Source: Thermovorax subterraneus
GTDB lineage: Bacteria > Bacillota > Thermosediminibacteria > Thermosediminibacterales > Thermosediminibacteraceae
Reading direction: 5' to 3'
DNA: 64,000 nt
Assembly (NCBI GenBank): GCA_021608145.1
Contig: JAKIHM010000005.1
Location: forward strand, 1-64,000
This document shows, piece after piece, positions 9,899 through 60,589 of the stretch. Both the position numbers and the translations under genes were made by a program. Under the pieces are notes generated by a model. It searched no databases and was not told the DNA's origin. It saw only the letters and a program-made list of their open reading frames with translations. Each line of letters begins with the position of its first letter. The stretch's first letter is position 1.

Positions 9899-9921
9899 TT
9901 TTAAAAAAGCTTTCAAATTGC

Positions 9922-9947
9922 CCCTACTATTTATTTAGTAGGGGCGT
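9922..9947 (+). terminator. terminator-like hairpin after the sigma-54 operon
   Basis: A 10-bp perfect stem (9922-9931 with 9938-9947) closing a six-base loop, followed a few bases later by a T-rich stretch. It lies 24 bases after the TIM-barrel gene and just before the promoter of the fumarase operon. The T-run is displaced, so termination may be partial. Confidence 0.6.
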
Positions 9948-9962
9948 GAATTTATTTTTTAT

Positions 9963-9991
9963 TTCACATTCCTTATATTTTCTGATATACT
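9963..9991 (+). promoter_or_regulatory. sigma-A promoter of the fumarase / malic enzyme operon
   Basis: TTCACA and TATACT separated by exactly 17 bases, each one mismatch from consensus. It is followed 35 bases later by AAAAAGGGGGT and the fumarase alpha start. The downstream genes can therefore be transcribed without the sigma-54 system. Confidence 0.75.
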
Positions 9992-10026
9992 CGAAAGCAA
10001 AAATCAAATAAAAAGGGGGTAACAAA

Positions 10027-33312: not shown

Positions 33313-33420
33313 TGACTTCCTCCCCCCCTAAAGGAGGCGGGATTCCTTCAGGCGACTCAAGTCGCCCTCCGGCTACCGCTCGCCGCATGCAGCGTACCGG
33401 CGGTAGATTAGAAGCGGCTT
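33313..33420 (-). ncRNA. putative omega RNA (reRNA) 3' region of the tnpB element
   Basis: The structured right end directly downstream of and overlapping the 3' end of tnpB contains the perfect hairpin GGCGACT-CA-AGTCGCC (33351-33366) and other GC-rich dyads, ending at the element border. TnpB proteins use a guide RNA from this position, whose last bases outside the element act as guide. The 5' limit is unknown and overlaps the coding region. Confidence 0.45.
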
Positions 33421-34652
33421 ACCCACCGGTGGCAGTTCCACCGGAGGGCAAGCGGCTTCAGGGGCGTGGCCTCCGCCCCGTGCCCCTTCGAGGAGCCCAA
33501 AAGCAGTATGTTTAAGGCCGCGTTGGCGTCGGCGTGCCAGACATAGCCGCATCTTTCGCACACCGCCTTGTGCCGGACGAAACGCCTGATGGGAGAGCCA
33601 CAAACGGCGCACTTCGAAGACGTGCCGCGTGGTTCGACGGGAACGACTTTTATCCCGGCTCGGGCACAGGCAGCCTCGACAAGATTCCTCAACATCCTGA
33701 AGGCCCAGAAGTTGTGCACCAAAATGTTTTTCGGCCCGAAGTCCATGTCCTCCCGGATGCCGGTCAGGTCTTCGATGAACAGCGTGGTCACGTGGTGTTG
33801 CTTGAGGATACGTGCGATTTCCGCGGCCAGGGCGATGAAGGCGTGTTTGAGCCTGCAGGTGCGTGTCCGGTAGAGCTTCCGGAGTTGCCGGGAGGTTTTT
33901 CGCCCAGCCCGGGCAAGCCTTGCCTGCTCTTCAGCGATGCACTTCGTCCAGTACAGGAAGTCTTTCCAGACTTTGCGACCGGAGAAGAGAAGCTGGTGGC
34001 TTACACCCTCGACGGCCAGAGCAGCCAGCACCCTGGCGCCGAGGTCCAAAGCGGCGTATTTCTCGGGTCGGGTTTTTCTTGCTGCTTCCGGCACTTCCAC
34101 GACCTGGTGGGCGTACCAGCGCTTCTTCACCCGGTCGTACCTGAGTTCCAGGGTCTTTGGGGTGCCATGGAAGCGCAAGACACCCTTCGTGTGCAGGATC
34201 AGGCGGTCCCCTTGCTTTTCCCGGAGATCCCGCGGTAGTGTGAGGGAGAGGGTGTGGGAGTCCAATGCGTAGGACGTGGGCGCTTTGACGGGGATGACGC
34301 GGAATGTGCGCTTTCTCGTCCTGCGGTCCTTCCAGTAGCGGGGTATGCGTGGCGGCTCCTCCAGTTTACCTTTCCAGTACAGCCGTAGGCAGGCAAAGAA
34401 GGAGTCCCACGCCTCCCTTGCCTTTTTGATGACCTCCTGCCCTATGTGGGCGGGCAGGGCACGATACGCCGGATGCTCCTTGAACTCGGCGCACAGGGTT
34501 TCGTAGGAAGGCACGGGTTCACCCTTGAAGAAGGCCTGCCTGCACCTGTACTGGCTGGCATTCCAGAGGGCAGCACAGCGATCCCCGATTGTTTCGAGCA
34601 TTTGCTTTTGTTGCTTGCTGGGCAAAACCCGGACAATGTTTGTTCGCCTCAT
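33408..34652 (-). CDS. tnpB: TnpB RNA-guided DNA endonuclease
   Basis: 414 residues. The RuvC-like site is complete: Asp203 (AALDLGAR), Glu294 (LFIEDL) and Asp375 (HADANAALN). A zinc ribbon sits between the last two: Cys348-x2-Cys351 and Cys365-x2-Cys368. The N-terminal helix-turn-helix/oligonucleotide-binding part begins RTNIVRVLPSKQQKQML. TnpB cuts DNA next to a transposon-associated motif under guidance of the omega RNA and favours retention of the element. Arg/Ala-rich, GC-rich codon use differs from all neighbours. Confidence 0.92.
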   Translation of the reverse strand: MRRTNIVRVLPSKQQKQMLETIGDRCAALWNASQYRCRQAFFKGEPVPSYETLCAEFKEHPAYRALPAHIGQEVIKKAREAWDSFFACLRLYWKGKLEEPPRIPRYWKDRRTRKRTFRVIPVKAPTSYALDSHTLSLTLPRDLREKQGDRLILHTKGVLRFHGTPKTLELRYDRVKKRWYAHQVVEVPEAARKTRPEKYAALDLGARVLAALAVEGVSHQLLFSGRKVWKDFLYWTKCIAEEQARLARAGRKTSRQLRKLYRTRTCRLKHAFIALAAEIARILKQHHVTTLFIEDLTGIREDMDFGPKNILVHNFWAFRMLRNLVEAACARAGIKVVPVEPRGTSSKCAVCGSPIRRFVRHKAVCERCGYVWHADANAALNILLLGSSKGHGAEATPLKPLALRWNCHRWVSRF

Positions 34653-34973
34653 GCTTCTATTTTAGCACAACTGGCCGCCGCTTTCATCCCTCCCCTTGAA
34701 AGGGTAGGGCCTTCCCGCGGCGGTTCTGTAAACGACGTAATAATGAAGTAATTGTTGAAGTTTGTAAATTTCAGGAATACTAAAATTTATGTAAAAACCG
34801 TTGATACAGACCAGATAAAAGGCGCAGATTGATTATTTTCGGTTCTACTAGTAAAATAGAAGGGTAAAATATCAATTAAGCAAAGGATGTTGTTCAACTT
34901 ATATAATTTATAATCTTGCGGTTCTAATTATGTTTGCACTTTGGAAATAACATAAAAAAGGAGGATGAAGTTG
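34653..34973. other. IS left end and intergenic region upstream of Uma2
   Basis: 34653-34735 is the left end of the tnpB element, with a TAAAAT -10-like box for tnpB on the minus strand. 34736-34973 is AT-rich with no reading frame of note. TATAATTTATAAT (34900-34913) offers -10 boxes for the Uma2 gene, but no convincing -35. Confidence 0.4.
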
Positions 34974-35549
34974 ATGCCCTCGCCTGAGGAAAGCAAAAAA
35001 TATACTTATGCCGACTATCTGACATGGCCAGACGATGAACGTTGGGAGATCATTGATGGCATAGCCTATATGCAGGCTGCTCCTACATGGCAGCATCAGG
35101 CTGTCGTCTTAGAATTGGCAAGACAGTTTGCCGATTATCTTAGAGGTAAGTCTTGCATGGTTTTTACAGCTCCTTTTGATTTAAGGCTTCCGGAAGAAAA
35201 TGAGAAAGATGAGGATACAAAAAACGTCCTTCAACCTGATATAGTTGTTATATGTAACAAAGAGGGGCTTAAAGGTACCGGTTATTACGGCATTCCTGAT
35301 CTTATAATTGAGGTAACGTCGCCATCCACATCACGGAAAGATAGGTTGCTTAAGTTTAATAAATACGAGACAGTCGGCGTGAAAGAATACTGGATAGTAG
35401 ATCCCGATGGGAAATTCGTTAGTGTTTTTACTCTGCAGGAAAATAAAAGATATGGCCGGCCTGAATTGTATAGCGACAAAGATAAAATAAAAGTGTCTAT
35501 TTTTCCGGATCTCGTAATTGATCTTGAGCCGGTATTCGCGGGAATATAA
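34974..35549 (+). CDS. Uma2-family (DUF820) restriction-fold nuclease
   Basis: 191 residues, the intact copy in the window. Family order: YTYADYLTWPDDERWEIIDG, HQAVVLELARQFADYL, PFDLRLPEENEKDEDT, VLQPDIVVICNKE, DLIIEVTSPSTSRKDRLLKF and EYWIVDPDGKFVSVF. The Asp of QPDIVV and the Glu of IEVTSPS are the PD-(D/E)XK-type active site. Role unknown; such genes multiply in cyanobacteria and thermophilic Firmicutes. The frame opens at ATG 34965 directly abutting GGAGG; the in-frame ATG 34974 has proper nine-base spacing. Confidence 0.87.
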   Translation: MPSPEESKKYTYADYLTWPDDERWEIIDGIAYMQAAPTWQHQAVVLELARQFADYLRGKSCMVFTAPFDLRLPEENEKDEDTKNVLQPDIVVICNKEGLKGTGYYGIPDLIIEVTSPSTSRKDRLLKFNKYETVGVKEYWIVDPDGKFVSVFTLQENKRYGRPELYSDKDKIKVSIFPDLVIDLEPVFAGI

Positions 35550-35787: not shown

Positions 35788-36891
35788 TCACCTTTTTACA
35801 GCAATCACATCAATTTCTTCAACCATTTCCTTTTTAGATTTCGAAAAAGTATCAGCCTGCCTTCGGCCTTTTTTAGGAAAACCTGCCGATCTCACCTCTA
35901 CAATTTCCCACGCTGTTTCTTTCAGCGATTCTTCTATCAATTTTTCAGGTTCAACCTTTCTCTCGTTGATCCCACCGAATCTAACAGCCAGAATAGCTCC
36001 TTCAACGCTAACTTCGGCTACATTGTTCCATACTTTTCTCAATTCGTTTACAAATAATTCTTTGCTGGAATGTCTGATCTGGCCGTCAGTTGAATAATCT
36101 ACAGTTTCAGGGCCTCCTAAAAACCAGTTCCTTAACCACTGGTCAGCAATATATGTCTTCATTCCATAATAAGGCGGCGATGTAATGATAATCGATACTT
36201 TTGCGTTATTTTTATCTAAAAATTTTTTCACCCTAGCAAAAGTTTTATCAGACGTACTATCTCCTCTTACAACAAATCCATAGCCTCTTGGTAAATCTTG
36301 CCCGTAATACCTTTCCGCCCTTTTTTTAATTATACTCATAACATCCACTTTAGGAGGCTTCAATTTTCTTTCTTTCCAGAACCTAACTGCATAACCCGGC
36401 TTCGGTGCATAAGTGCGCGGACACTGATTAGAAAAATACGATGGACTGGTGTTATACATAGGCCCGTGCAAAGCTCCGAGCATTATAGCACGCAAAGCAA
36501 TTCGCGCTGCAGAATCACAATTTTTTAGCAGTGCTTCGCGTATCTTGCAAATGTTTACCAGAACTTCCCGATCGAAAGCGTATTCCCAAAATTCACCTTG
36601 GGGAATATTTGAAACTTCTTGCCGAGATAATATTTTTTCTGTAACCTGGATTATTTGGTTTACTCTTACATTTATAATCTTTGCTTTCGTCAGAGCTACG
36701 GCAACCGGGCTGCTGTCAATTCCTATTGAAGGAAGACCGTAGATCCTTGCAGCAAAATTGGTGGTCCCTCTTCCGCAAAAGGGATCTAACACCCATTGAT
36801 TATTATTACCGTAAGTTTCAAGAACGCCCATTGGAAAATCCAAAGGGAACATGGTAAAATAAGGGCATATTGCATTAAGATTAAAACTCAT
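35788..36891 (-). CDS. DNA methyltransferase of the NurA-HerA operon
   Basis: About 367 residues. AdoMet motif I is LDPFCGRGTT (near residue 36) and the catalytic motif IV is TSPPYYGM (near 239), the order and SPPY form of N4-cytosine or beta-class N6-adenine amino-methyltransferases. SIGIDSSPVAVALTKAK is motif II. No restriction endonuclease domain is fused. The frame opens at TTG 36894; the ATG at 36891 overlaps the end of herA by 11 bases, so the three genes are translated together. It could mark self DNA for the NurA-HerA nuclease (inference). Confidence 0.88.
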   Translation of the reverse strand: MSFNLNAICPYFTMFPLDFPMGVLETYGNNNQWVLDPFCGRGTTNFAARIYGLPSIGIDSSPVAVALTKAKIINVRVNQIIQVTEKILSRQEVSNIPQGEFWEYAFDREVLVNICKIREALLKNCDSAARIALRAIMLGALHGPMYNTSPSYFSNQCPRTYAPKPGYAVRFWKERKLKPPKVDVMSIIKKRAERYYGQDLPRGYGFVVRGDSTSDKTFARVKKFLDKNNAKVSIIITSPPYYGMKTYIADQWLRNWFLGGPETVDYSTDGQIRHSSKELFVNELRKVWNNVAEVSVEGAILAVRFGGINERKVEPEKLIEESLKETAWEIVEVRSAGFPKKGRRQADTFSKSKKEMVEEIDVIAVKR

Positions 36892-38986
36892 CAATCATAT
36901 CACCTGAACTCTCTAAAGCTTCTACGTACATAGTTCCTTTTTCATTTCTGTACGTTCTCCACCCAGAATTCTCTTCACCAAATATCTCCTTAAGGCATCT
37001 ACTAACCATGTTATATGCAAAGTTGTTTTTATTTTCAATTATATCGGGAAGCATTTTCTCTATTTTTGCCACTATTCCTCCCCAAGCTATACCTCTTTTA
37101 ACGTTATTTATGAAACTAGGATCTGATTTGAGGTCATTAATAACTTTTCTTCTAATTACTTCCATATAATCAATTTCTTCTTCATCTTTGCTATCGGATT
37201 CTAAATTAGCAATAGACTGAATATTTTCTTGCAAAGCTTTCATAAATTTTCTCTTTAGCTGTTTGGCATAAGTTTCAATTTCTCCCATGCTGTAAGTACT
37301 GTCAATGGTTTTTACTTCGGACTCGAAAGACATCACCCTTAAGGATATCGGGTAAGGCTTTCCACTGACAGAACTCCAAAAAACACAGTGCCCTACAATT
37401 GGTTCATTTAAAAGAGTGCTCAATATATCATCACTGAAGTGAGCATTAGCCCTTTTAAGGTTTTGAAGGTCCACAGCGGAGAGCAAGTGGAAAATAAACC
37501 AGTTATCCCCTTGACTCAGTATTTCCGAAGGAATACTTCCCGGCTGCTGAGTTATGAGCAGAACTCCCAGATCATATTTTCGACCTTCCTTTACCCACGT
37601 AATGTAAGGTTCGCTGGCAGATACCCCAGGCACCAGAACCGATTGGGCTTCTTCGATTACCGCTATTGTAGGTATCGTTTGTGGTTCGGCGGCGGTAAAC
37701 TCTTCCTGATTTCTGTCGAAAATCTTCCTGAGTACGATGCCGCTCAATATCAATGCCTGTTCACCCTTGAGCTGAGAAATGTCAACAATGCACAGCTTGC
37801 CATCTGCCAAAGCCATGAGCAGCATATCAATAAACTGGCTGTGCGGATCATGGAGGGTATTAACAATTGTTGTCATATTCGCTCTCGCAGCAAGCGCCTC
37901 TGCATCTTGACTATCTTCGAGATTTAAAATCGATTTTATATCATCCAAATCAGCTTCATTTTTTTGTCTATAAATAAGATCTACAAGTCTTTCCCACTTA
38001 GTCTGATTCAAACCTTTTATCTTCCTCACATTCTGTTGATCTTGTTTTTCTTGAGATAACGCAATTGATACGATATCAGCTGGCCTAAACCTTCTTATGT
38101 CAAGGCGGATTCCTCCTGCCACAAACGAACCGTAAAACTTGCTCGGAGCTTGTCTGGAAGTGAATACCACAATATTATCCTTCAACTCCGGCACATCGCA
38201 AAGCCCGGGCCGTCCCTTATCATCGGGCCAGAAATACTCCCCATCGCGATCAAATATGATAGTTCCTACCGGTACTTTCTTCCCTCCTCTTTTTTCAACA
38301 AATGGTGTTTTCTTATATAATTTACTGAATAAGAGTTTGTTGAGATTTGACTTTCCAAAACCGGCGCGAGCAAAAATAAACGACCTGCGGGATACCAAAT
38401 TTTCCACCGGGAATTTGACCGTAATCTCAGGACTCTTAATCTGCATCCATTCTTCTTTTTTGCCTTTGAATTTTGTATCATCTCCTGCATATATGTATTC
38501 GCCCAGCGCAAAAAAGCCGAGTTCTGCTCCCTTTTCATTATGTCCGGCGATTTCCTGGAGCACTTCATCCGAAGGAAAAGCTACCGGACTTCCAACATGG
38601 GGAATTCTTCTGTGTGAAGGTATAAAAACAATTTTGCCCTCCGATAACTTTAAACTCCCGAGGACGCGTATATTTACTCGGTATTTCAAATACTGCTCCC
38701 GCAAGTCTTCGGGGATAACTCGATTTTCCCTCACCGCTCTGAGGTTGTAATCCTCTCCAACACTGGAAGTAAGTTTGCCTTCAGAGGAAACCGAAGTTAT
38801 GCGCCCTAAAACCGCCTCCTCGGGAGATTCAAGCTGTACAAGCAAAAATTGTCCATGCATCGGTATATTGTGCAGGTCCCTTTTATAAGGCAAAACGAGA
38901 TCCGCATGGAACTCCAAACCACCCTCGCTGAATCCTCTAAAAATACCTACAATTTTGTCCCTTGGAAAAAGACTGTCAATCGGCAT
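36881..38986 (-). CDS. herA: HerA-family hexameric DNA translocase
   Basis: 701 residues. N-terminal beta-barrel (HAS-like) region to about 195; FtsK/HerA-type ATPase with Walker A FARAGFGKSN (206-214), a DRDGEY strand after it, and Walker B AVIEEAQSVL near 445 followed by KYDLGVLLITQQPGSIP. These are HerA rather than VirB4 features. It should pump double-stranded DNA into a partner nuclease. NurA is encoded 13 bases upstream. RBS GAGGGG. The C-terminal 120 residues form a helical extension. Confidence 0.9.
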   Translation of the reverse strand: MPIDSLFPRDKIVGIFRGFSEGGLEFHADLVLPYKRDLHNIPMHGQFLLVQLESPEEAVLGRITSVSSEGKLTSSVGEDYNLRAVRENRVIPEDLREQYLKYRVNIRVLGSLKLSEGKIVFIPSHRRIPHVGSPVAFPSDEVLQEIAGHNEKGAELGFFALGEYIYAGDDTKFKGKKEEWMQIKSPEITVKFPVENLVSRRSFIFARAGFGKSNLNKLLFSKLYKKTPFVEKRGGKKVPVGTIIFDRDGEYFWPDDKGRPGLCDVPELKDNIVVFTSRQAPSKFYGSFVAGGIRLDIRRFRPADIVSIALSQEKQDQQNVRKIKGLNQTKWERLVDLIYRQKNEADLDDIKSILNLEDSQDAEALAARANMTTIVNTLHDPHSQFIDMLLMALADGKLCIVDISQLKGEQALILSGIVLRKIFDRNQEEFTAAEPQTIPTIAVIEEAQSVLVPGVSASEPYITWVKEGRKYDLGVLLITQQPGSIPSEILSQGDNWFIFHLLSAVDLQNLKRANAHFSDDILSTLLNEPIVGHCVFWSSVSGKPYPISLRVMSFESEVKTIDSTYSMGEIETYAKQLKRKFMKALQENIQSIANLESDSKDEEEIDYMEVIRRKVINDLKSDPSFINNVKRGIAWGGIVAKIEKMLPDIIENKNNFAYNMVSRCLKEIFGEENSGWRTYRNEKGTMYVEALESSGDMIDEF

Positions 38987-38999
38987 TGCACTCGTCCCC

Positions 39000-40142
39000 T
39001 CAATATCTGTTAATCGACGGATCCAAATCTATAAGTCTAAAAGTATCAATTTTGTCTGCATCCCCTCTCAGAACTTCCCTCAAAGAGTTTAATATCTCAT
39101 CTTGAATAATCTCCATATCAAAATCAACCAGCGCAGCGTTTTCATGGGCCTTTTGTAAACTCAAAGGATAAAAAGGAACCGGAAAGCCGTCTATCGCGTC
39201 AGACAACAAATAACCCATAATTTGAGGTGCATCTTCTACCTGACTTAATAAGATATCAACCGCCCATATCGGATCATATCTGCCGGACCCGAATTTTACA
39301 AAGAACATTTTTCCGGCTACAAATTTATTAATTTCTCTTCCTTCTTGAACAACCTCGTCCCCTCTGGCATATTCCGGCCAAACGTAAGCCTTTTCTTCTA
39401 TGTTTCTGGGAATCTCAACATAGCAGGGATAATTTCCGGTCATAATATTTTCAATATACATTGCAAGGCGGTACCTATCAATTACTTTACTGTGTTTTGC
39501 AATTCCTACGATATAAATTCTCCTTCGATTGTTTTCATACTGCCTTCGTATGCCCTCTTCCAATCCTTCTCTATATTTAACAAACAAGTCACCTGCAAAA
39601 ACTTTACTCCTGAGCAATCCATCAAAAACAATCAGCGTATCGGTACCGAAATCTTTATCCCTCACAATTGAAAAAAGAGTAGCCCATTCAACCAATTCTC
39701 TATAAACCTGCACCCAGCTAGGATTAACGGGTTTATCGGGGGGATTATACCTTATCATGGGAGTAAGTTTAGTAATATCGTCAACACCAAGGTATTTCAT
39801 CATCTTTCTCAGTGAATCAAGCTTACTTTCCTTACCCTCAAATATCCTCCGGTTAATTTCCTCGATCCTTGTTGTCGGAGTAATGACATCCATATAATAT
39901 TCGTTATTGCTGGAATCAACGACTCTAATTACATTTACAAGAAAAGGATCAAACCTTAATTTGTTATTTCCGCCATCCGTCCCGACGAGAGAAATAGACG
40001 TTGCATTTCTTGGAACAATTCTTCGGACATTTCCTTTCAAAACCCGAATTTCATTCCTTAATGTATCGAGCAAAATCACATCATTTTCCATACATCTTTT
40101 TATATACTCTTTTAACCTTTGCAAGTTATATGTATCAAACAT
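39000..40142 (-). CDS. nurA: NurA-domain nuclease
   Basis: 380 residues with the NurA active-site pattern: first Asp56 in LVGTDGG, second Asp174 in LIVFDGLLRSK, and the C-terminal FPVPFYPLSLQKAHENAAL stretch. NurA is a 5'-to-3' single- and double-strand nuclease that works inside the HerA hexamer in archaeal end resection; in bacteria NurA-HerA pairs act in antiphage defence. GGGAGG lies 11 bases before the ATG. It is the first gene of a NurA-HerA-methyltransferase operon. Confidence 0.85.
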   Translation of the reverse strand: MFDTYNLQRLKEYIKRCMENDVILLDTLRNEIRVLKGNVRRIVPRNATSISLVGTDGGNNKLRFDPFLVNVIRVVDSSNNEYYMDVITPTTRIEEINRRIFEGKESKLDSLRKMMKYLGVDDITKLTPMIRYNPPDKPVNPSWVQVYRELVEWATLFSIVRDKDFGTDTLIVFDGLLRSKVFAGDLFVKYREGLEEGIRRQYENNRRRIYIVGIAKHSKVIDRYRLAMYIENIMTGNYPCYVEIPRNIEEKAYVWPEYARGDEVVQEGREINKFVAGKMFFVKFGSGRYDPIWAVDILLSQVEDAPQIMGYLLSDAIDGFPVPFYPLSLQKAHENAALVDFDMEIIQDEILNSLREVLRGDADKIDTFRLIDLDPSINRY

Positions 40143-40191: not shown

Positions 40192-40644
40192 TTATTGTTT
40201 TATTTCTTCTTTCAATTTCTTTAATTGATAAATATTTATCATTGGCAATCTTACAGGTGGATTAATTCCCGCAAGGGCTGTAGCAGATAATACATACGAT
40301 CTCGTGAACTGGGAAAGGGCCACAACACCATTCAATTCCAGCATTTTCTTAAAATCTTCTTGTTTTAAATTGCTTTTATTTCCCAGAAATTTCCCTTCGT
40401 AAACAACAAATATTTTAAACAAAGTGCTCTTACCAACTTTCGCAACAAAATTGGTTTTAAACTGAACTATACCATAATAAGCCTCATCATGTTCTTCTAT
40501 TTTTATAACCTCATAATCGAAATTATTCTTTACATTTACCTTTTCTTTGCCATTATTATTAACTTCTTTTGTTTCAAGTTCGAATTTTACAACTCTACTT
40601 GCAATCATCTGAAAATTAGCAACTATTTTATTAGCCTCTATCAT
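40192..40644 (-). CDS. SecB-like chaperone of a toxin-antitoxin-chaperone (TAC) module
   Basis: 150 residues, beta-rich. The C-terminal half follows the SecB pattern: a helix with NGVVALSQFTRSYVLSATALAG, then INPPVRLPMINI, equivalent to the SecB tail with its PxLxLxPxNF signature. In TAC systems a dedicated SecB-like chaperone folds and protects the HigA antitoxin. The start overlaps the HigA stop by four bases (ATGA), which supports that role. Overall similarity to housekeeping SecB is low, so the assignment rests on the C-terminal pattern and context. Confidence 0.72.
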   Translation of the reverse strand: MIEANKIVANFQMIASRVVKFELETKEVNNNGKEKVNVKNNFDYEVIKIEEHDEAYYGIVQFKTNFVAKVGKSTLFKIFVVYEGKFLGNKSNLKQEDFKKMLELNGVVALSQFTRSYVLSATALAGINPPVRLPMINIYQLKKLKEEIKQ

Positions 40645-41021
40645 GCAGCTTCACCCACAAAATTAAGTGTAGAAATATTATCTTCCGGCATATCCCAAAT
40701 CGTAATCTTCTGTTCTTTTTCCCTAAAAATGATTTTAAATTCCAGACCTAAAGCCGACGATATTTTCCACAATTGTTCAATAGATGGATTGTATTCTCCA
40801 CTTTCCAGTTTCGAAACCATCGCCTGAGAGCAGCCTAATTTCATTGCAAGATCCTTCTGCGTTAAATTGTTTTTTGCTCTATAGTTTATCAAAGTAGTTG
40901 CTATATCAACCAAAATATCATCCAATTCGAAATATTCTTTTTCTCCTTCGTCAGCTATTTCATCAATCAAATCATAGGGATTTCCCAATATCTTTCTATA
41001 ATCCACTTTCCAACCCTCCAT
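40641..41021 (-). CDS. higA: HigA-type XRE antitoxin
   Basis: 126 residues. A helical N-terminus (1-45) is followed by an XRE helix-turn-helix with NLTQKDLAMKLGCSQAMVSK and the next LESGEYNPSIEQLWK. The C-terminal tail after KIIFREKEQ ends DMPEDNISTLNFVGEAA, longer than in two-component HigA and in the position of the chaperone-addiction segment of TAC antitoxins. It is downstream of the toxin, upstream of the SecB-like gene. A near-identical partial copy lies at 28386. Confidence 0.85.
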   Translation of the reverse strand: MEGWKVDYRKILGNPYDLIDEIADEGEKEYFELDDILVDIATTLINYRAKNNLTQKDLAMKLGCSQAMVSKLESGEYNPSIEQLWKISSALGLEFKIIFREKEQKITIWDMPEDNISTLNFVGEAA

Positions 41022-41069
41022 TTTGCCATTTTAACCTTTTTGCCTTTTTATCTTTTAAATTATTCCCAT

Positions 41070-41510
41070 TTATATGAGTTTTAGACCCAACTTGAGAAGA
41101 TTATCTATCCTTTCTTTTGCAACTTCAATTGCTTTAGCATAACTTTTAATACTATTTTTCTTTTTGTTTTCTTTTTCCTGGAAACAATTTAATAAGATTA
41201 CAATTTCTCTTCGTCCATCACTAAAAAAAGAGAACAATATCCTTATATTAAGTTCACCGACAAACCTCATAGAATATATTATTCCATTATCCTTTAGTCG
41301 TTCAAAAGATTTATGTAGAATACACTGTTTCCTGAGTTTTTCTAAAATCAATAGCTGTCTTCTATACTTTCTGGCAAAATCCCTCTTTTGCCCGCTCATT
41401 TCTAGCAGGTCCTTCAACTCTTCATTAAAAGAAAAATAAGTAAAAATATAATTTGAGTTAAATTCTTCGGGATAAATGATTTTACTCTTTTCCCGCCTCT
41501 TATCTGACAT
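41070..41510 (-). CDS. higB: HigB/RelE-family toxin
   Basis: About 146 residues. The C-terminal half has the RelE/HigB-type core: IIYSMRFVGELNIRILFSFF, REIVILLNCFQEKENKKK and a final SYAKAIEVAKERIDN helix. This is the ribosome-dependent mRNA interferase fold of phage Gp49-like toxins. The longest frame starts at 41552, but AAGGTGA at 41515-41521 and the ATG at 41510 give a normal start. Toxin-first gene order is typical of HigBA. Confidence 0.82.
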   Translation of the reverse strand: MSDKRREKSKIIYPEEFNSNYIFTYFSFNEELKDLLEMSGQKRDFARKYRRQLLILEKLRKQCILHKSFERLKDNGIIYSMRFVGELNIRILFSFFSDGRREIVILLNCFQEKENKKKNSIKSYAKAIEVAKERIDNLLKLGLKLI

Positions 41511-41522
41511 TTTTTCACCTTC

Positions 41523-41552
41523 ATTATATAACTTATAAGTTATATTAGTCAA
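41523..41552 (-). promoter_or_regulatory. promoter and palindromic operator of the TAC module
   Basis: On the minus strand TTGACT (41547-41552) and TATAAT (41523-41528) are 18 bases apart. The spacer and -10 are covered by a perfect 20-bp palindrome (41526-41545) with core AACTTATAAGTT, a natural HigA operator for autorepression. The -10 is so close to the ATG at 41510 that the transcript would carry a very short leader. Confidence 0.75.
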
Positions 41553-42182: not shown

Positions 42183-43874
42183 TTAATCCTTTTTGAGGAT
42201 TAAAAGAAACTCATTGGCCGCTTTCGAAAGAAGTTCTGCTCTTTTTAGCACGAAATCCCCGTATACCTGTTTGAGGTCTTCTTTTCCCCAGCTTTTTTCT
42301 ACGATTTCCCTTCCTGCTGATGCGTCCGCAAAAGGCCCAGGTATAAAATGTTCGTCGAGTTCTCCTCTAGAAATATTGTACTCAAGCACATATTTCCAAG
42401 GAGGCTTTCCTGAAAGTCTACTTACATTCGTTCGCTCATTTAAAACGGTGATATTTGCCAACGCGTGAATATCATCTATTGGTAGACCATTTTTATTTAA
42501 CAAATTCTGAGGATATATATGATGCCATTGAGGTTGAAAGCCGGACGTAATGGGGCTGCCCGTTTTGTCATATCCTATACGGGTTTTATCTACCCAATCC
42601 CTCGCGTTATTTTTGAATAAAATTAGGTAAAGCATAAGCCTTAAAAATTGATTGCCTTTTCTATCGTATCTGTTGAGAAATTCTGTCGGATCAATCTTTT
42701 GCTGCACATGCAAGCGCTGCAAGAGGTTCGAGAGAGCAGCATCAAAACTAGACGCCTCATTGATAGCTTTTACGTCCTCGTTTAAGCTCGTAATGGCAGA
42801 ACCGCTGTACCTACCGTCCCTGCTGGCCATCAAAAACCACCATAGAGCTTTTCCAAAACTATATTCTTTCTCTTTACTCCACTTAGCATGTAGTACGAAC
42901 AACGGAATTAATGCGTTCACCGAAGGCAAAAGTTCAGAAGACATAATTCCGTATTCGGCCAGCCGCTTTATGACCTCTGAAATTGCATCCCGCGTTTTTG
43001 CCCATACCCCAGGCAAGTTCGATTGGTCCCAAAAACCCTTAGGTACTTCAACTAACCTTGCCCGGCCATAGCCAATGCCCGTCATGGTGCGAATAAAAAC
43101 GCCGGCATCCAGGTCCCAACCTCTTTCATCTAGGTCATTTCTAAAGGGGATATAATGTTCTCTAACCCAGCCGGGATTGTAGACAGCTGCCAAAGCTAAC
43201 ACCACATCTGCCTCTTTCACTCTAGTTCCCGCTTGATTGAGCCTTGCAAAGATTTCCGCCACATCCTCGACTTCGTGCGAAATTTTTATTATGGGAATTT
43301 CCATATCCCTGATTTGCCACAGGCGCTGCATGTTCGCATGGATTTTGGCGAACAATTCTATCGCTTGGGAAGGACTTGAAGCAAGCTGACCTACCCTCTC
43401 TTGAGCAAGTTTTGTGAATTCTTCCACTTTCTCTTTAGAAAGAATCTCCCGCAGGCTCATCCATCGGGGGTCTTTTTCTCGGATGGGATTAGATAAGGCA
43501 AATTCCAGCCTTTCATCACCATCCGGCAAAAGATTTACCATCACATCGTAGCGTGCCAAGGTTTTATTCCAATCCGCGGAACTCGGCCACCAATAGGGTT
43601 TTTCTCCGAATAAAATACATAAAGCGGTAGTACGCTGCTGACCGTCCACAATCCACGATGAACTTTTCGCGCCTTCAGCAATTTTCGCTTCTCGATATGC
43701 TGAGGAATCCCAAAGCAAAAACGACCCTACAGGATACTCGCGATATAAAGATTCTGCAAGCAATTTTACCTGCTCGGGATCCCAAACAAAATCCCTCTGA
43801 AACTCCGGGACATCGATTTCCTTATTGACGGCTCGCCGAACTATTTCCTTTACTTTCAACTGCTCAAGAGCCAT
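42183..43874 (-). CDS. DUF262 / DUF1524 (GmrSD-like) nuclease-type protein
   Basis: About 563 residues. The N-terminal DUF262 (ParB/sulfiredoxin-like NTP-binding) domain has VPEFQRDFVWDPEQVKLLAES, YPVGSFLLWD and WIVDGQQRTTAL. The C-terminal region around 440-500 has WHHIYPQNLLNKNG and ITVLNERTN, an HNH-like DUF1524 motif. The GmrSD type IV enzymes that cut modified phage DNA share this pairing. The open frame begins at 43913, but AAGGAGGGGTGTT before ATG 43874 fixes the start. It overlaps the broken small gene upstream, and a terminator follows downstream at 41656-41685. Confidence 0.85.
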   Translation of the reverse strand: MALEQLKVKEIVRRAVNKEIDVPEFQRDFVWDPEQVKLLAESLYREYPVGSFLLWDSSAYREAKIAEGAKSSSWIVDGQQRTTALCILFGEKPYWWPSSADWNKTLARYDVMVNLLPDGDERLEFALSNPIREKDPRWMSLREILSKEKVEEFTKLAQERVGQLASSPSQAIELFAKIHANMQRLWQIRDMEIPIIKISHEVEDVAEIFARLNQAGTRVKEADVVLALAAVYNPGWVREHYIPFRNDLDERGWDLDAGVFIRTMTGIGYGRARLVEVPKGFWDQSNLPGVWAKTRDAISEVIKRLAEYGIMSSELLPSVNALIPLFVLHAKWSKEKEYSFGKALWWFLMASRDGRYSGSAITSLNEDVKAINEASSFDAALSNLLQRLHVQQKIDPTEFLNRYDRKGNQFLRLMLYLILFKNNARDWVDKTRIGYDKTGSPITSGFQPQWHHIYPQNLLNKNGLPIDDIHALANITVLNERTNVSRLSGKPPWKYVLEYNISRGELDEHFIPGPFADASAGREIVEKSWGKEDLKQVYGDFVLKRAELLSKAANEFLLILKKD

Positions 43875-44082
43875 AACACCCCTCCTTTTTAACAAAAACA
43901 ACGTGATCACCAAGAATTACTTCCTCAACCTCATACCCTGCCCTTAACCATGCATAGGCCTGCACATCCCCTTCGTTAGCCCATCAAGGGCGATACTTAC
44001 TTGCTGAAGGCGGGAAACTATTTCCCATGATTTTTTCGATATCCTCAAAGGAAAGTTTTACCCGGGAAGAATCCTGACTCAT
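43864..44082 (-). pseudogene. small DUF7662-like gene interrupted by one stop codon
   Basis: A 73-codon frame from ATG 44082 to TGA 43864 with the pattern KLSFEDIEKIMGNSFPPSAS, KYRP-stop-WANEGDVQAYAWLR, GYEVEEVILGDHVVFVKK. Relatives read KYRAWWAN at the interruption, so a Trp codon (TGG) has become TGA and the rest of the frame is open. I recall the family as DUF7662, of unknown function, often next to restriction genes. Its end overlaps the DUF262 start by 11 bases, so the pair was translationally coupled. Confidence 0.75.
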
Positions 44083-44534: not shown

Positions 44535-47500
44535 TTACATCTCCTCCCACTCCTTACGAAGCTGTGCAGCCATCCTTATAACTTCTTCCACCAGTTCGCT
44601 TCGAGTATCATTCATATTATTTTCCGGCATATAGCCTTCAGGTTTTATGCCGTGAGCATCAAGCTGCTCAAATACCCATTTCATAGTTCCCTCAGGATCC
44701 CTGTAAAAGTCGCTGCCACGGATTCGGATGAATTTCCATCCCAGGCGTTCTAGGACAGCCTGGCGAGCCAGATCCTCCGGCAATTTTTCTATGGGATGCC
44801 ACCTGTCGCCGTCGCACTCAATCGCTATCCTATTTTCTGAATCTTCTACGACCAGATCGATAACATAATAACCCGCTGGCCACTGAGCATAGGTGCGATA
44901 ACCCGCAGCAATAAGCCGTTTTAAGACTTCCTGTTCAAAAGGTGATTGTGTGCGGGCACTTTCGCGTGCTAAAGCCCTAGTAACTGACTCCGGATCTAAA
45001 GCGTATTCGATTAAACGGCGGCGGAGATCGCCTTCTTTTAAATCATTATATGGATCAAGGGAATATATCACCCACATCTGGTCTTTAGCCCTGCTGGCAG
45101 CGACGTTAAACCGTTGTCTAAAACGGTCGGTTTCGCGCAAGGGGAGAGGAGTTCCCGTCGAAGCGTCTACGAGGGACAAAAATACCACATCCCTTTCGTC
45201 GCCCTGAAATTGAGCAGCGGTGCCGCACAAAATATTTCGGTTCTTGTATTCCTGTTCGGATAAATACCTTCTAAGCAGAGAATCTATGTATCGAGCCTGT
45301 TCCTCTCCCACCAAAGATATTACGCCAAAAGTCTTATTTTCGTAAGCCGGATGATTTGCCGCTGCTACCAACAGCGACGCCAACTCAATTGCCTCTTTTT
45401 TATTTACCTTTCTTTCCACGATTGCACCTTGCACCCGGTAGGGTACCACGTGAGGTTTGAGCGGTACCTTGCTGGATTCCCTTAAAGGTCTTATACTGCC
45501 GTTATAGCAAAGGTAATTGCTGAACTGTATAATTTCAGGCACACAGCGGAAATGTTCTATTAGCATGATGGTACCGCCGAATGACTCCCGCGCAATATCG
45601 TAAATCGAGCGCCTTCCGTCATAAAGTATAGCATTCGGTATATCCTTTAAGTATTCTGCTATAATATCCTTAATGCGTTCCAGCTCCTGTCCGACGCCTT
45701 CCGGACTTACCTGTTCGTGGTCACCCACAACCACTACTTTATCAGCCAAATACAGCGCCGTAAGGGCCAACGAATCGCACTGGCTTGCTTCATCGATGAT
45801 TACCACATCAAAGCGCGTCGTCCTCGGGTCGAACTGCTCTACCACGCGGGAAAGCGGCATAATCCACACCGGAACTGCATCACGGGCAATGTTTAACTTC
45901 CTTGCCGCTTCTGCCCTCAAATAAGGTGCAAGTTTTGAGTATCCTTTTCCAAGTTTTTTCATGATATTAAGCCATCCCATCAAAGCCTGCTGCTGTTCCA
46001 GTGTCGTCCTTTTCAGCTGCGCTGCCCACGCCTTGCATTTTATAAGCTCTGCTGTGATCTGCCTCAAGGCTTCGGTGCGCCTGTTTATAAGCTCCTGCAA
46101 TTCTGATACCGAAACCGATGTGCGCCTTTTGAGTTCCTCTTCGAGCTGTCTCCACCGCCATGCCTCCACGGGGTCCCCCGGCAATTCCGCCTTGCCATGG
46201 ACGCCTTGCCGCGCGCGAATAGCCCCTGCCCAACCAGGTGCGAACTGCTCTAGTTTCGTTAAAAGCTCTTTTCTTCTCTTAAGGTGAACCTGACGCCTGT
46301 AAAGATCCGAAAGCATTTCATAAGCCCTTGAATAGCTTTCCGAGTCCAAACTTTTAACCGCACTGTACAGCCGGTCTACAATCGCACCTTTATGTATTTT
46401 TTGAATATCCCTCAATACCTTTTCCAGGTTTTCAATTTCGACGCGTGCCCAATAATGCTGGATACTCGATATCCTCGATTCAATAATATGGGGCAATTTT
46501 TCCATCAGCACTTTGCCTAAAGTTCTGAGCTCAGCGAAAGGAGAACTTTCAGATTCACGTTGCTTTATAAAAGCATCCCAATAAAATCCGTAATTTTTTA
46601 ATTTCTCAATTAACGGCGAAAGTCTTTTATCGCTAAATTCAAGCAATTCCTGAATCCGACTCAAACGCTGAACGGCAACCCGTTCAGGTTCTTCACTCTG
46701 TTTATCAAGTTCTGGACCACCATGCCTTGTCACTAGGTAATCCCAGCGCAATATGAGTTCATTGCGCAATCTTAATAGTTTTGCCAGTGCCGCCAGAGCT
46801 TGAAAGTGCTGGACCTTGCTTGGATGTCCTGAAGCTACTTTGGCATTCTGAACGAATCTTCGCCATACAGGACGAAAAATTAGGGAAAGGCCACCTATAC
46901 TACCACGGCGTGAGGCTTCTTCCGCCAGTTCAATAGCCAATCGCTCTTGTTCTTCAAAAGAGATATTTTCGGCCAGCCGCGGTCGATGTAGAATGAAAAG
47001 CTCCTGCGAGTTTGCTTTCAATTCCTCAATATCTCCCAGTAATTTTATAAGATTATTCCACGGTTCACAATAGGCTCTGCCCTTAGTTCCAGAATCCACA
47101 GCCGCAAGTTCCCAATCTTCGGCCTCCAAAAGTTCCTTTCCGATTTCTTTTGCTTCCTTTGCAAGTTCATCCAACGCCCCAACAATTTCCCGTCCTTTTT
47201 TCTCATCATCCCAAAACTCCGAACTTGGCAAATTAACTGGATGCGACAAAATTCCACTCAATTCGGAAAAACGCTCGGGAGACATGAGGTTTTCCGGGGA
47301 AGGGAGCCCAAAAAGCAACTCCCGCTCTTCTTCGGGCGTTACGGCGGCATTGGTTTGATAAAGCTCTACTAATTCTGGAATAGAAAGGGGTAGAGGTTGG
47401 CCAGGCTCGACGGGTCCCGGTATCCAGTCATGGACCCCTTTACCTTTCGCTACCAGCCTGGCTGCTTCGCACGGATCATACGACTCTCCTCCTAATACAA

Positions 47501-49031
47501 TGGGCCTGTACTCGCTGCCAACGGTATCCAGAAGGCGCTGTTGCAATGCCTGAATTTCTTTTATTAACTGTCTCCTTTGGGAAGACAAATCCTTCGCCCT
47601 CTCTTCAAAAGTCTTTGCGTCTCCATGATTTAATTGCTCGACGATATGATTTACAGCCTCTTCGAGCTGCTTTCGGCTCTCCAAATCGTTGTCCAGCACG
47701 CTAACGCAAAGGGGCCTCAGCGGTTCGACTATTTTGTCTCGAAGCACCCTTAATGCTTTTGAGGTATGGGCGGTGACAAGGACTGATTTGCCCTGGGCGA
47801 GTAGATGTCCTATGAGATTTGCGATTGTGTGCGTTTTTCCTGTCCCAGGGGGGCCCTGGACCAGAACTGCACCGTAACTTTCCAATCTTTCCGCTATTTT
47901 CAACTGTTCCTTATTCCAAGGCTTGCTAAAAAGAATTTCTTCCGGTTCGCTACCCGGGAGACCGGTATATTCTGTTTCCGGCGCCTCAATTTTCCCGTCC
48001 GACAAATCTATTCCGACGATCCTCGATAAAAACGGAGGCAAGTCTTTACGTTCCTGCAAATCCTCCAAAATTTTATCCAGCGCAAGTGCAAAACCTAATG
48101 TCCGTTGTCTTAAGAAAATCAAAGGCGATCTTCCTATAACCGGCTGCATCGACCTTTCCGGCGGCAACTTTTCTCCGATAAATTCGCCGTGGGGCGAAAG
48201 GGCCACTACAAGTCGTCTGAGAAAGCCCGAAGTATCGTCCCTTCCCAGCGGATGAAAGCCACCCTTACTCCATTCATCCTGGATACTTGCCAAGTTATTT
48301 ATATCAACCTCTGTCCCATGGCGAAATGCTGCCGTATAAAGCTGTGGGTTTGCTCCCGTATCGACTATGCGAAATTCCGGCACATCGGCATCAAATTCCA
48401 GTTGTACCGGCAGCAAAAGCAGAGGGTAATATATTTCTCCTTCTTCATTTTGCCAGCTTAAAATGCCATCCCCTAGCATCAATTCCACGCGTTCGCCCTC
48501 TCGCTGTATATGCCCATACAATTCGTAGAGGGTTTCGAAAACCTTCATGGCCTGCCTTGCCGGCCGCTCGTTTGCCGCCCATTCCTTCCACAATTTTCTC
48601 CAGCGTTCGAATTCCTCAACACGCTTTTTATCATCTTCAAAATGTTCCACGGTGGAAGTCCCGTCGGACAATCCTATGTTTTTGCTGGCTATTGGGAATA
48701 CATCCTGCTTAAAAGGATCCTCCCAGCCAGACTGCAACCATCCCCTAATGGATTCGGGAGGTGCGGGCGGTTTTGTGAGCTTGGGCCGCCGGACTCTAAG
48801 GATAAATCCATTTCTTTCTGCTACTGATTCTGAATCTTCCCCTTCTTCTGAAGTGAAAAAGTATGTACGGCTTATCGAAGGATGATCGGGAAGTTCGGAA
48901 AACCAAATGCGCCAGCTATGTTCCTCTATATGGGTGGGAAAAGAATAGCGAATATGGGAAAATTCGCGAAGAAAGCTATATAATCTTATCAGGCGTTCTC
49001 TTGCCGTCTGGAGTTTTTCATTTACGCTCAT
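44535..49031 (-). CDS. large SF1 helicase with C-terminal Vsr-like (MTES_1575-type) endonuclease domain
   Basis: About 1498 residues. Walker A VQGPPGTGKTHTIANLIG lies near residue 400, followed by a long coiled-coil insertion (about 470-1050). Walker B VVIIDEASQCDSLAL and the UvrD/DNA2-type C-terminal motifs IMLIEHFRC, TAAQFQGDERDVVFLSLV and RFNVAASRAKDQMWV come next. The last 110 residues hold PAGYYVIDLVVEDSENRIAI, then ECDGDRWHP, then VLERLGWKFIRIRGSDFYRD, a Vsr/DUF559-type PD-(D/E)XK nuclease. Start chosen at ATG 49031 (frame open from 49055). Only about 45 bases separate it from brxA, so it is probably cotranscribed with BREX. Confidence 0.88.
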   Translation of the reverse strand: MSVNEKLQTARERLIRLYSFLREFSHIRYSFPTHIEEHSWRIWFSELPDHPSISRTYFFTSEEGEDSESVAERNGFILRVRRPKLTKPPAPPESIRGWLQSGWEDPFKQDVFPIASKNIGLSDGTSTVEHFEDDKKRVEEFERWRKLWKEWAANERPARQAMKVFETLYELYGHIQREGERVELMLGDGILSWQNEEGEIYYPLLLLPVQLEFDADVPEFRIVDTGANPQLYTAAFRHGTEVDINNLASIQDEWSKGGFHPLGRDDTSGFLRRLVVALSPHGEFIGEKLPPERSMQPVIGRSPLIFLRQRTLGFALALDKILEDLQERKDLPPFLSRIVGIDLSDGKIEAPETEYTGLPGSEPEEILFSKPWNKEQLKIAERLESYGAVLVQGPPGTGKTHTIANLIGHLLAQGKSVLVTAHTSKALRVLRDKIVEPLRPLCVSVLDNDLESRKQLEEAVNHIVEQLNHGDAKTFEERAKDLSSQRRQLIKEIQALQQRLLDTVGSEYRPIVLGGESYDPCEAARLVAKGKGVHDWIPGPVEPGQPLPLSIPELVELYQTNAAVTPEEERELLFGLPSPENLMSPERFSELSGILSHPVNLPSSEFWDDEKKGREIVGALDELAKEAKEIGKELLEAEDWELAAVDSGTKGRAYCEPWNNLIKLLGDIEELKANSQELFILHRPRLAENISFEEQERLAIELAEEASRRGSIGGLSLIFRPVWRRFVQNAKVASGHPSKVQHFQALAALAKLLRLRNELILRWDYLVTRHGGPELDKQSEEPERVAVQRLSRIQELLEFSDKRLSPLIEKLKNYGFYWDAFIKQRESESSPFAELRTLGKVLMEKLPHIIESRISSIQHYWARVEIENLEKVLRDIQKIHKGAIVDRLYSAVKSLDSESYSRAYEMLSDLYRRQVHLKRRKELLTKLEQFAPGWAGAIRARQGVHGKAELPGDPVEAWRWRQLEEELKRRTSVSVSELQELINRRTEALRQITAELIKCKAWAAQLKRTTLEQQQALMGWLNIMKKLGKGYSKLAPYLRAEAARKLNIARDAVPVWIMPLSRVVEQFDPRTTRFDVVIIDEASQCDSLALTALYLADKVVVVGDHEQVSPEGVGQELERIKDIIAEYLKDIPNAILYDGRRSIYDIARESFGGTIMLIEHFRCVPEIIQFSNYLCYNGSIRPLRESSKVPLKPHVVPYRVQGAIVERKVNKKEAIELASLLVAAANHPAYENKTFGVISLVGEEQARYIDSLLRRYLSEQEYKNRNILCGTAAQFQGDERDVVFLSLVDASTGTPLPLRETDRFRQRFNVAASRAKDQMWVIYSLDPYNDLKEGDLRRRLIEYALDPESVTRALARESARTQSPFEQEVLKRLIAAGYRTYAQWPAGYYVIDLVVEDSENRIAIECDGDRWHPIEKLPEDLARQAVLERLGWKFIRIRGSDFYRDPEGTMKWVFEQLDAHGIKPEGYMPENNMNDTRSELVEEVIRMAAQLRKEWEEM

Positions 49032-49075
49032 GTATATACCCCCATTAGTGGCCATTATTTACTCAATAAAGGTAA

Positions 49076-49783
49076 CTACACGCCTACCACAATATTAGTT
49101 CCGATTCTGTTAATGCTCAACATTTTCGATGATGTTATTTCGTTTAAATTTAAATCAAATTCAAATGGAAAAAACGAATAAAGTTTATCTATTTCGGCAA
49201 AATCCAGGTAACTTCTATTCGATGCCTTTAAATAGCACAAAATCAAAAAGCATTTTATGGAGCTGTCAGAAATATATACCTTCTTGCCAGAGGTATAGAG
49301 TCCTTTCCCCTCGCTTATTATCAGTCCCCACTCTTTCAAGCTGAATATAATGTTGTTAATCGAATACAAAATTGTTTGCCTTTCTCCCCATTTTTCGAAA
49401 ATCTTTCTTCTTATGTTTTCCAGTTTAAATTTTTCATCCAAATACAGGTTTTTGCCAATTAGATAGATGATATCGTTAAAAATAGGGAAGCTTAGCATCA
49501 TCAAACCATAGTGCAGCGCTATTTTCTCTTCATCATTTGTCCTTTCGTACAAATCAACTGCAAAATCCCTGACAAATTCTGACCTTTCATCCACATCTAC
49601 CCAGGTTTTCAATAAAACGGAAACGGATTTTCTTATAGTAACCGGACTTTTGTAAAAATTAGAAACATGTCTTTTCAATAATTCTTTTATTTCTTTAGAA
49701 CTTAAATTGCCCTTCTTTAATTCATCTGCCGTCATATTCAACCATTCTAGTTTGACGGGCTTTAGAAAACCCACGAATTTCAT
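49076..49783 (-). CDS. brxA: BREX protein BrxA (DUF1819)
   Basis: 235 residues, a helical protein placed last in the BREX type 3 order. Segments DELKKGNLSSKEIKELLKR, LYERTNDEEKIALHYGLMM and FEKWGERQTILYSINNIIFS agree with the DUF1819/BrxA winged-helix family, a DNA-binding, NusB-like fold. Identification depends partly on position behind pglZ (15 bases). Its exact task in BREX is unclear. Confidence 0.8.
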   Translation of the reverse strand: MKFVGFLKPVKLEWLNMTADELKKGNLSSKEIKELLKRHVSNFYKSPVTIRKSVSVLLKTWVDVDERSEFVRDFAVDLYERTNDEEKIALHYGLMMLSFPIFNDIIYLIGKNLYLDEKFKLENIRRKIFEKWGERQTILYSINNIIFSLKEWGLIISEGKGLYTSGKKVYISDSSIKCFLILCYLKASNRSYLDFAEIDKLYSFFPFEFDLNLNEITSSKMLSINRIGTNIVVGV

Positions 49784-49798
49784 AGCTCCATTCCTTCC

Positions 49799-51673
49799 TT
49801 AATTTATTATTCTGGCAAAGGGAACAACCACTTCTTCCAGTGCAATTCCTCCGTGGCTTATGGCACTTTCGCCGTCTTTTATAAAAGAATAGTTGCCGTC
49901 ACATATCAGATACTTAAACTCCTTAGGCAGTCCATCTCCCTTCCATTCTATAACCTGTTTTTCCCTCAATAAATCGCCAAAATCGCCGTATTTAGCCTGA
50001 TAAACCGCAATCCTATTCGATAATGTATCCAACACTACTCCCTCTTTTACACTTCCCTGACCTACTGTCGATATGTTCCCATGGTCCGAAGTTATGAAAA
50101 TCTCATAGCTGCTTTTCCCTGCTTCTTCCAAAAACTCCGCCAAAAAGCCGTTTTTCAAGAAGACTTCGATTCGTTGATAAAAGCCTTTATAATCGAAAAA
50201 CTCCTGATGACCGTATATGTCTATGATATCTGCAACGACCCCTATAATTTTTGTACCACTTCTTAAACTTTCCAGCAAGGCCTCTTCCTTAAATGTCTTT
50301 ATACCCCTTAAATAAGCGACTTCGCTTTCTTTATATCCGTGTTCTACGTAAAATTTCTTAAACCGCTTTTCATCGTAATCGGTCGAAAACAGCGTATCCT
50401 TAAAGTTAACCGGTATCTCTCCCGAAAAAAGAGCCTGCCTCGAAACAGAAGTTATAGTCGGAATCCAGGCAAAGCAAGCTTTATCCTCCAAAAGAAAACT
50501 ACGCTCTTTTAAGAAATTCTTTATGATACACCAATTGAACTCCGACATACCGTCAAAGACTATCAAAACTACCCTATCCTTTTCTTCTCTTCTTAACAAG
50601 TTTACGATGTAATGTTGAACGTGATGGACCATAACCGGCGAACTCGTAAAAGACATGAAGGGAAGCTTGCCGTAGTTCTCGAGGAGCCAATTTTTAAACT
50701 TCTCATTTATCCTATCGCTTAAAAGGCGATATTCTTCCAAATCAAGCAAACAGGAAAGGTAAATAATTTCTCCGAATACCTTTGCAATCTCCAGCCAGTC
50801 TTTATAGCCCTTTATATTCTCAATTCTCTCTTCTATCTTCCTCACAGCCTCATCATGTTCTTTTCTTACGGCTTCCTTGTAATCGACGATTATCCCCGCC
50901 TTTACAAACTCCGGCATTCCGGTCTTGTACTCAAAGCGTATAGGATTCAAATATCCTTCCTTAAATAAATTGTCGATATATACCCTTATATCAGGGTCTT
51001 CAAAATCGACTATAGGTTTTCTCGAATCTTCGACAAAACTTTCAAGAAATACTTCCCACTGCTCCTGCAAAAAATCAAAAAACGCTTCCTTCCCCTTTAA
51101 AATTTTTTCTACGATATCTTTCTCGTTCACATTATCTAAACTCTTCTTGATATAGCGCCGCAATACAGGTGGAAGCTCCATTCCTTTGTAGTACAGTTTC
51201 AATAGGTTTTTTACCAAATCTCCCAGTGAACTTATCAAAGCCGCATCGACTTGAAAGATGCTCTTTAATATAAAAGCGCAGGTTTCATCAAAGTCTAGCT
51301 TTTGTTTGAGCTTTGAAGATTTCTCATATATTACATCATAATACTCCCTTTCTATCTCCTTCAAAACCTCGACATCCAAATTTTCAAAAACATCACCAAG
51401 ACTTACTTCCAAAATAAAGTAATCCTGTTTTATGTCCCAAGGAATGTAACATTCTTCATTCACCAACAAAAGAAGCTTTTCCGATTTTCCCCTGTAACTA
51501 GTCTCATATTGATAACGGTAAATATCCACATCATGATAATAGATTATTTTATAACCTTCACTTAAAATCATGCCAACAGTATAATCATCAGAAAGAAGAT
51601 TGCACAAATCCTTTACCAATATGCGATCGCATTCTTTCAGAGGCATCTTTTTTAAAAGAATTTCATCAATCAT
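49799..51673 (-). CDS. pglZ: BREX alkaline-phosphatase-fold protein PglZ
   Basis: 624 residues. The C-terminal half has the PglZ/alkaline phosphatase core: VVLIVFDGMSEFNWCIIKNF (metal-binding Asp), PTITSVSRQALFSGEIP, then IFITSDHGNISTVGQGSVKE with Asp/His ligands and a final AISHGGIALEEVVVPFA. The N-terminal half is helical. PglZ is the hallmark of all BREX systems. The start abuts the brxHII stop with no gap. Confidence 0.95.
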   Translation of the reverse strand: MIDEILLKKMPLKECDRILVKDLCNLLSDDYTVGMILSEGYKIIYYHDVDIYRYQYETSYRGKSEKLLLLVNEECYIPWDIKQDYFILEVSLGDVFENLDVEVLKEIEREYYDVIYEKSSKLKQKLDFDETCAFILKSIFQVDAALISSLGDLVKNLLKLYYKGMELPPVLRRYIKKSLDNVNEKDIVEKILKGKEAFFDFLQEQWEVFLESFVEDSRKPIVDFEDPDIRVYIDNLFKEGYLNPIRFEYKTGMPEFVKAGIIVDYKEAVRKEHDEAVRKIEERIENIKGYKDWLEIAKVFGEIIYLSCLLDLEEYRLLSDRINEKFKNWLLENYGKLPFMSFTSSPVMVHHVQHYIVNLLRREEKDRVVLIVFDGMSEFNWCIIKNFLKERSFLLEDKACFAWIPTITSVSRQALFSGEIPVNFKDTLFSTDYDEKRFKKFYVEHGYKESEVAYLRGIKTFKEEALLESLRSGTKIIGVVADIIDIYGHQEFFDYKGFYQRIEVFLKNGFLAEFLEEAGKSSYEIFITSDHGNISTVGQGSVKEGVVLDTLSNRIAVYQAKYGDFGDLLREKQVIEWKGDGLPKEFKYLICDGNYSFIKDGESAISHGGIALEEVVVPFARIIN

Positions 51674-56873: not shown

Positions 56874-56889
56874 TTTCTTGCCCCCATTT

Positions 56890-60588: not shown

Positions 60589-60589
60589 G

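Follow-up and report, generated by a model that had tools for sequence, protein, structure and literature searches.

HerA–NurA pairs are classically assigned to the resection of DNA ends. TdpABC, a HerA/NurA-like system of thermophiles, reportedly provides phosphorothioate (PT)-dependent defence in which the phosphorothioate is said to inhibit translocation by TdpAB; its structures are 8WET, 8WFD and 8Y1K. HerA and NurA of T. kodakarensis form a 6:2 complex that pumps dsDNA into the nuclease dimer in an ATP-driven manner and degrades both strands, and a motif-I Asp mutant of the nuclease, NurA D49A, has lost its activity (PMC12977600). No description of an operon joining HerA and NurA to a DNA methyltransferase (MTase) was found in the literature; preprints and subscription papers lay outside the coverage of this search, and a prior description is possible. 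Here, such a trio from Thermovorax subterraneus is compared with these systems. The stretch of DNA analysed, 64,000 nucleotides in length, is referred to as the window.

The three genes form a tight minus-strand operon (Table 1), with the NurA–HerA–amino-methyltransferase order and spacing that the first-pass annotation had proposed. A 13-nt gap separates the NurA and HerA genes, and the HerA gene runs into the MTase gene. The MTase ORF starts with TTG and contains an in-frame ATG at 36891; the overlap with HerA is 11 nt when counted from the ATG and 14 nt from the TTG.

Table 1. Genes of the operon and the predicted additional domain of HerA, with positions in the window.
Feature	Position	Strand	Length	Basis
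NurA-fold (TdpB-like) nuclease	39000..40142	-	380 aa	fold and conserved residues
HerA/FtsK-type hexameric translocase (TdpA-like)	36881..38986	-	701 aa	PF01935/DUF87 and fold
C-terminal winged-helix-like domain of HerA (predicted)	36917..37174	-	residues about 605–690	coordinates computed from residue numbers
SPPY-type N4-cytosine/N6-adenine DNA methyltransferase	35788..36894	-	368 aa	PF01555 and motifs

The surroundings are rich in other modules, including the TAC module and the BREX island noted in the first pass. Directly upstream of the trio lies a TAC-type module (40192–41552) of a Gp49-like toxin, an HTH antitoxin and a SecB-like chaperone. Further along are a protein with a GmrSD N-terminal domain (DUF262; 42183–43913), for which HEC-05 is the top PADLOC match, and an SF1 helicase of 1,506 aa that ends in an MTES_1575 nuclease domain (44535–49055). 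The helicase gene directly adjoins a separate operon, about 9 kb from the trio, that encodes BrxF, BrxC/PglY, PglXI, BrxHI, PglZ and BrxA (49076–61090), a BREX set of a type 3-like composition. On the opposite flank, a TnpB-like ORF (33408–34652) and a Uma2-like ORF (34965–35549) were recognized by sequence reading only. The closeness of the trio to BREX is one instance, in one 64-kb window, and the interpretation given below does not need BREX.

Searches of Pfam, NCBIfam and PADLOC (2023 models) with the NurA-like protein gave no match, and the gathering cut-off of PF09376 was not reached; its identity was therefore taken from PDB profile and fold comparisons. A PDB profile search with NurA relatives returned TdpB as the only significant match (E 8.6e-8). 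TdpB is also the best PDB match of the AlphaFold model (pLDDT 87.8) in VIA-align, with a Z score of 24.9 over 329 residues and an rmsd of 3.7, and canonical NurA structures align with Z scores of 14.3 (3TAZ) and 13.9 (2YGK). The earlier assignment as a NurA nuclease, which the three family databases leave without support, is thus upheld by the fold. All 65 aligned sequences share D56-GG, E152, D174, K216, D315, Y325 and H333. The modeled RNase H-like fold, together with the catalytic acidic residues D56, E152 and D174, places the protein in the NurA fold or superfamily.

The HerA protein matches PF01935/DUF87 (Pfam, E 1.8e-21), and its GFGKSN motif (K212), D402, EE445–446, R469 and Q480 are invariant in 56 aligned sequences. 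The DUF87 domain, Walker A and B motifs, sensor Q and conserved Arg are all present, as expected from the sequence of a HerA/FtsK ATPase. TdpA is the best match by both phmmer (E 1e-23) and profile search (E 4e-34), and the top VIA-align match of the AlphaFold model (pLDDT 86; Z 31.4 over 488 residues, rmsd 4.7). Residues beyond about 560 fall outside the TdpA match. In the model, this C-terminal part consists of a long helix followed by four helices and two strands at residues 607–690, which probably constitute an extra winged-helix-like domain (residues about 605–690); the label is given because of the order of the secondary-structure elements in the whole-protein model. Divergence among the 56 sequences has been faster here than in the motor part, although G632, W635, P647, G670 and W676 are each retained by at least 51 of them.

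The third protein matches PF01555 N6_N4_Mtase (Pfam, E 1.2e-13). Its motif I, DPFCGRGTT (residues 37–45), precedes motif IV, SPPY (239–242), which is a permuted order when compared with 2ZIE, the beta-class match. Judged from these sequences, the protein carries both motifs of N4/N6 amino-DNA methyltransferases (an FxGxG-type motif I and a [DNS]PP[YFW] motif IV), and the SPPY form slightly favours m4C over m6A as the product. Across 47 sequences, SPPY is fully kept and DPFCGRGTT varies little or not at all; NurA D56, HerA K212 and SPPY, the residues singled out in the first-pass annotation, are invariant in all 65, 56 and 47 aligned sequences, respectively. That annotation had also described an amino-methyltransferase without a restriction partner. 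Its partners are HerA and NurA, and Pfam and PADLOC found no site-specific endonuclease domain in the operon.

The extent to which the trio is conserved was examined by a NurA-family scan of one genome per species, in which 131 stretches were confirmed. Of these, the 80 best loci were analysed; 15 are cut or split, leaving 65 evaluable loci elsewhere. The three genes are adjacent in 49 of the 65, either as NurA–HerA–MTase (n = 40) or as MTase–NurA–HerA (n = 9), and span about 15 phyla, archaea included. The intergenic distances are operon-like, −1 to 25 nt between NurA and HerA and −32 to 38 nt between HerA and MTase. Two further loci have a family MTase within 2 kb yet outside the operon, and the remaining 14 lack an adjacent one. 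Distances between NurA–HerA sequences and between MTase sequences co-vary (Mantel r 0.63; 0/2000 permutations), to which shared descent of whole operons contributes. In a same-phylum sample of 299 genomes, the window-type NurA is present in five (the window's own genome counted, the distant L013 and L014 types left out) and the MTase in seven, and all five NurA carriers have both (Fisher p 1.1e-9). These tests across loci and across the phylum sample argue that the arrangement is not due to chance. Only two carriers were found in 319 Pseudomonadota-type genomes (the phylum of G306), too few for statistics.

The tree of the family mixes phyla freely, with Acidobacteriota rows lying among Alphaproteobacteria, for instance, and the distribution is patchy; two sampled genomes of the genus of T. 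subterraneus are without the window-type NurA. Such crossing of phyla is consistent with horizontal spread of the trio. Many of the records in the tree are MAGs, some of which may be misbinned. Plasmid and phage collections contained no NurA match, and a HerA search of them gave only distant plasmid matches; a single trio (L095) was found in a search of viral_contigs.

A strict trio, as first proposed, holds for the 49 adjacent loci and fails for the 14 loci without an adjacent family MTase, so the coupling is strong, not absolute. The catalytic residues are intact in the MTase-less loci where aligned. In eight of the genomes concerned, including the complete chromosome of L073, the genome-wide search gave no family MTase match above 65 bits. 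In the L027/L038/L078 clade, NurA–HerA is about 92% identical to that of trio members, and the sole family MTase belongs to a 45%-identical subfamily, lying 9–16 kb off beside the gene for a 1,415-aa SF1 helicase; here either the MTase acts in trans for NurA–HerA or two separate modules are present. A convergent pair of an MTase relative and a 1,415-aa SF1 helicase (AAA_11/AAA_12) was seen in L133, L134, L135 and L138, where it borders variable defence islands. The same pair occurs on two plasmids (L215 and L216) without NurA–HerA, which indicates that MTases of this family also have other partners. The slot next to NurA–HerA can also be filled differently. At L057, a beta-type MTase lies directly upstream of a window-type NurA–HerA, and at L013, which branches deeply within the window-type family, the MTase position (9471–10652) is occupied by DruA (PF14236, E 1e-92; DUF4338). 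A DruA-like gene was likewise observed beside canonical NurA at L199 (contig C11 of the window's own genome), L200 and L207.

Housekeeping HerA–NurA loci provided a control. Canonical PF09376 NurA is present in 55 of 298 same-phylum genomes, with two copies in the window's own genome. The control loci were screened by a strict motif, by BLAST and by a loose [DNST]PP[YFWH] pattern, the last two being added because the strict motif misses some MTases, such as that of L057. No DNA MTase was found by BLAST or motif within about 4 kb of any of the 32 canonical loci examined; at six of them there is a distant NPPY protein resembling a tRNA methylase. A different picture emerged at L137, which was reached through the MTase profile. 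Its NurA is of the PF09376 type, its HerA differs from that of the trio, and next to them lies a distant MTase homolog of the permuted SPPY family (28% identity; hhalign 100%). With the L137 NurA as query, four additional loci were found; all have a neighbouring MTase, of the MethyltransfD12 type in L147, L148 and L149 and of the beta-type N6_N4 kind in L150. An MTase is therefore adjacent in 5/5 loci of this second lineage, which together use three methylase classes. Profile comparison of the window-type NurA with the second-lineage NurA gave no significant match, and the apparent kinship of the two rests on the NurA family name and on the homology of HerA and MTase.

These data are best explained, with a probability of roughly 0.6, by a restriction-modification (RM)-like defence system in which methylation shields self DNA from a degrading HerA–NurA motor. 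This reading is favoured by the tight clustering of the trio in 49 of 65 evaluable loci, in two orders and about 15 phyla, by the presence of the MTase in 5/5 NurA carriers of the phylum, by the contrast between 0/32 canonical and 5/5 second-lineage loci, by the co-variation of distances and by TdpAB being nearest to both proteins. It is also favoured by the translocation-driven degradation of dsDNA by T. kodakarensis HerA–NurA (PMC12977600). The MTase-less loci, the L027/L038/L078 clade and the other partners of the MTase family weaken it. In the proposed mechanism, the MTase would mark a host sequence motif by amino-methylation. A hexameric HerA ring, presumably capped by a NurA dimer, would load onto duplex DNA, possibly at sites picked by the C-terminal winged-helix domain, and ATP hydrolysis would drive HerA to pump the duplex into NurA for degradation of both strands. 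Methylated sites would spare host DNA by blocking loading or translocation, much as phosphorothioate is said to do for TdpAB, and invading DNA such as that of phages, lacking the methylation, would be destroyed. The mark may be read at loading, via the winged helix, or during translocation.

The loci that lack an adjacent MTase and retain intact catalytic residues would also fit a stand-alone HerA–NurA defence nuclease, acting by abortive or end-dependent degradation, that merely shares islands with an orphan or partner-swapping methylase, and the alternative partnership of the MTase family with the 1,415-aa SF1 helicase points the same way. We consider this explanation unlikely, given the tight, order-independent coupling in 49 loci and the 5/5 co-occurrence in the phylum. 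The second HerA–NurA lineage, in which MTases accompany all five loci, as against none of the 32 housekeeping ones, also speaks against it.

Another explanation reverses the meaning of the mark: HerA–NurA might be modification-dependent in a type IV-like manner, or the MTase might direct degradation by tagging targets or intermediates of replication. Nucleases that depend on methylation are known, and the predicted winged-helix-like domain could bind methylated sites. The PT-sensing effector SspE offers a precedent in that it recognises its mark directly (PMC13251355). A co-operonic host MTase would, however, mark the host chromosome itself. TdpAB, the nearest relative, is moreover reportedly inhibited by its mark, and licensing by methylation thus appears very improbable. 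The least probable explanation is DNA repair, in which HerA–NurA would resect the ends of double-strand breaks, its classical role, with the MTase being incidental. D. radiodurans without HerA–NurA does show reduced recombination (PMC12977600). Yet the genome of T. subterraneus has two other, canonical PF09376 NurA genes, and the trio NurA lacks a PF09376 match and is nearer to TdpB. The patchy spread across phyla also speaks against a repair function, as does the absence of the window-type NurA from two congeneric genomes in the sample.

If the RM-like reading is true, HerA–NurA, which is usually filed under DNA repair, would supply the restriction activity of a widespread immune system based on methylation, and some apparently orphan SPPY methylases would have found a role. 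Self would moreover be recognised by a ring-shaped motor that surrounds the DNA and halts at a methyl group, a mechanism unlike that of sequence-specific endonucleases. More tentatively, and with considerable doubt, HerA–NurA could be a restriction motor of general use that accepts interchangeable modification enzymes, among them base methylases of at least three classes, TdpC (phosphorothioate) and perhaps DruA-type proteins. Self would then be told by chemically different marks on translocated DNA, aided in the window-type family by the C-terminal winged-helix reader.

Comparison with known systems sets the trio apart from each of them. In type II and type I RM, as in the trio, a DNA MTase is genetically coupled to a nuclease; the trio nuclease is a translocase-fed NurA, with no site-specific endonuclease, specificity subunit or SF2 motor. 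The first-pass view that the layout differs from classical RM is borne out, and the layout recurs in the second lineage. BREX and DISARM similarly tie methylation to a multi-protein defence without a classical REase, but the trio operon contains no PglZ, BrxC or DrmA/B, and the BREX operon of the window has its own PglXI. The SIR2-HerA and DUF4297-HerA defence systems share the combination of a HerA motor with an effector (Z about 22–25); the effector is a different one, a modification enzyme is absent and the similarity is lower than to TdpA. Canonical HerA–NurA of archaea and Deinococcus has the same fold, catalytic Asp motifs and two-gene pairing, and differs in that its nuclease matches Pfam NurA and that a DNA MTase adjoins the housekeeping type in none of the 32 loci examined.

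TdpABC is the closest relative. Both systems consist of a HerA-type hexamer, a NurA-fold nuclease and a third gene for a DNA-modification enzyme, and TdpA and TdpB are the best structural and profile matches of the trio HerA and NurA. The identity is only about 25% for HerA and 17% for NurA, the trio HerA has the C-terminal winged-helix-like domain beyond the TdpA region, and a PF01555 base methyltransferase stands in the place of TdpC. No TdpC phosphorothioation enzyme is present in the trio operon, the next genes being the Uma2-like ORF and the TAC-type module, and the trio is thus not a TdpABC member. A TdpB fragment searched in 298 same-phylum genomes found only the distant HerA–NurA locus of G048. 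Motor and nuclease are directly parallel in the two systems, and the modification enzymes correspond only in their position. By analogy, the trio probably works like TdpABC with a different mark, and this kinship offers a direct experimental comparison.
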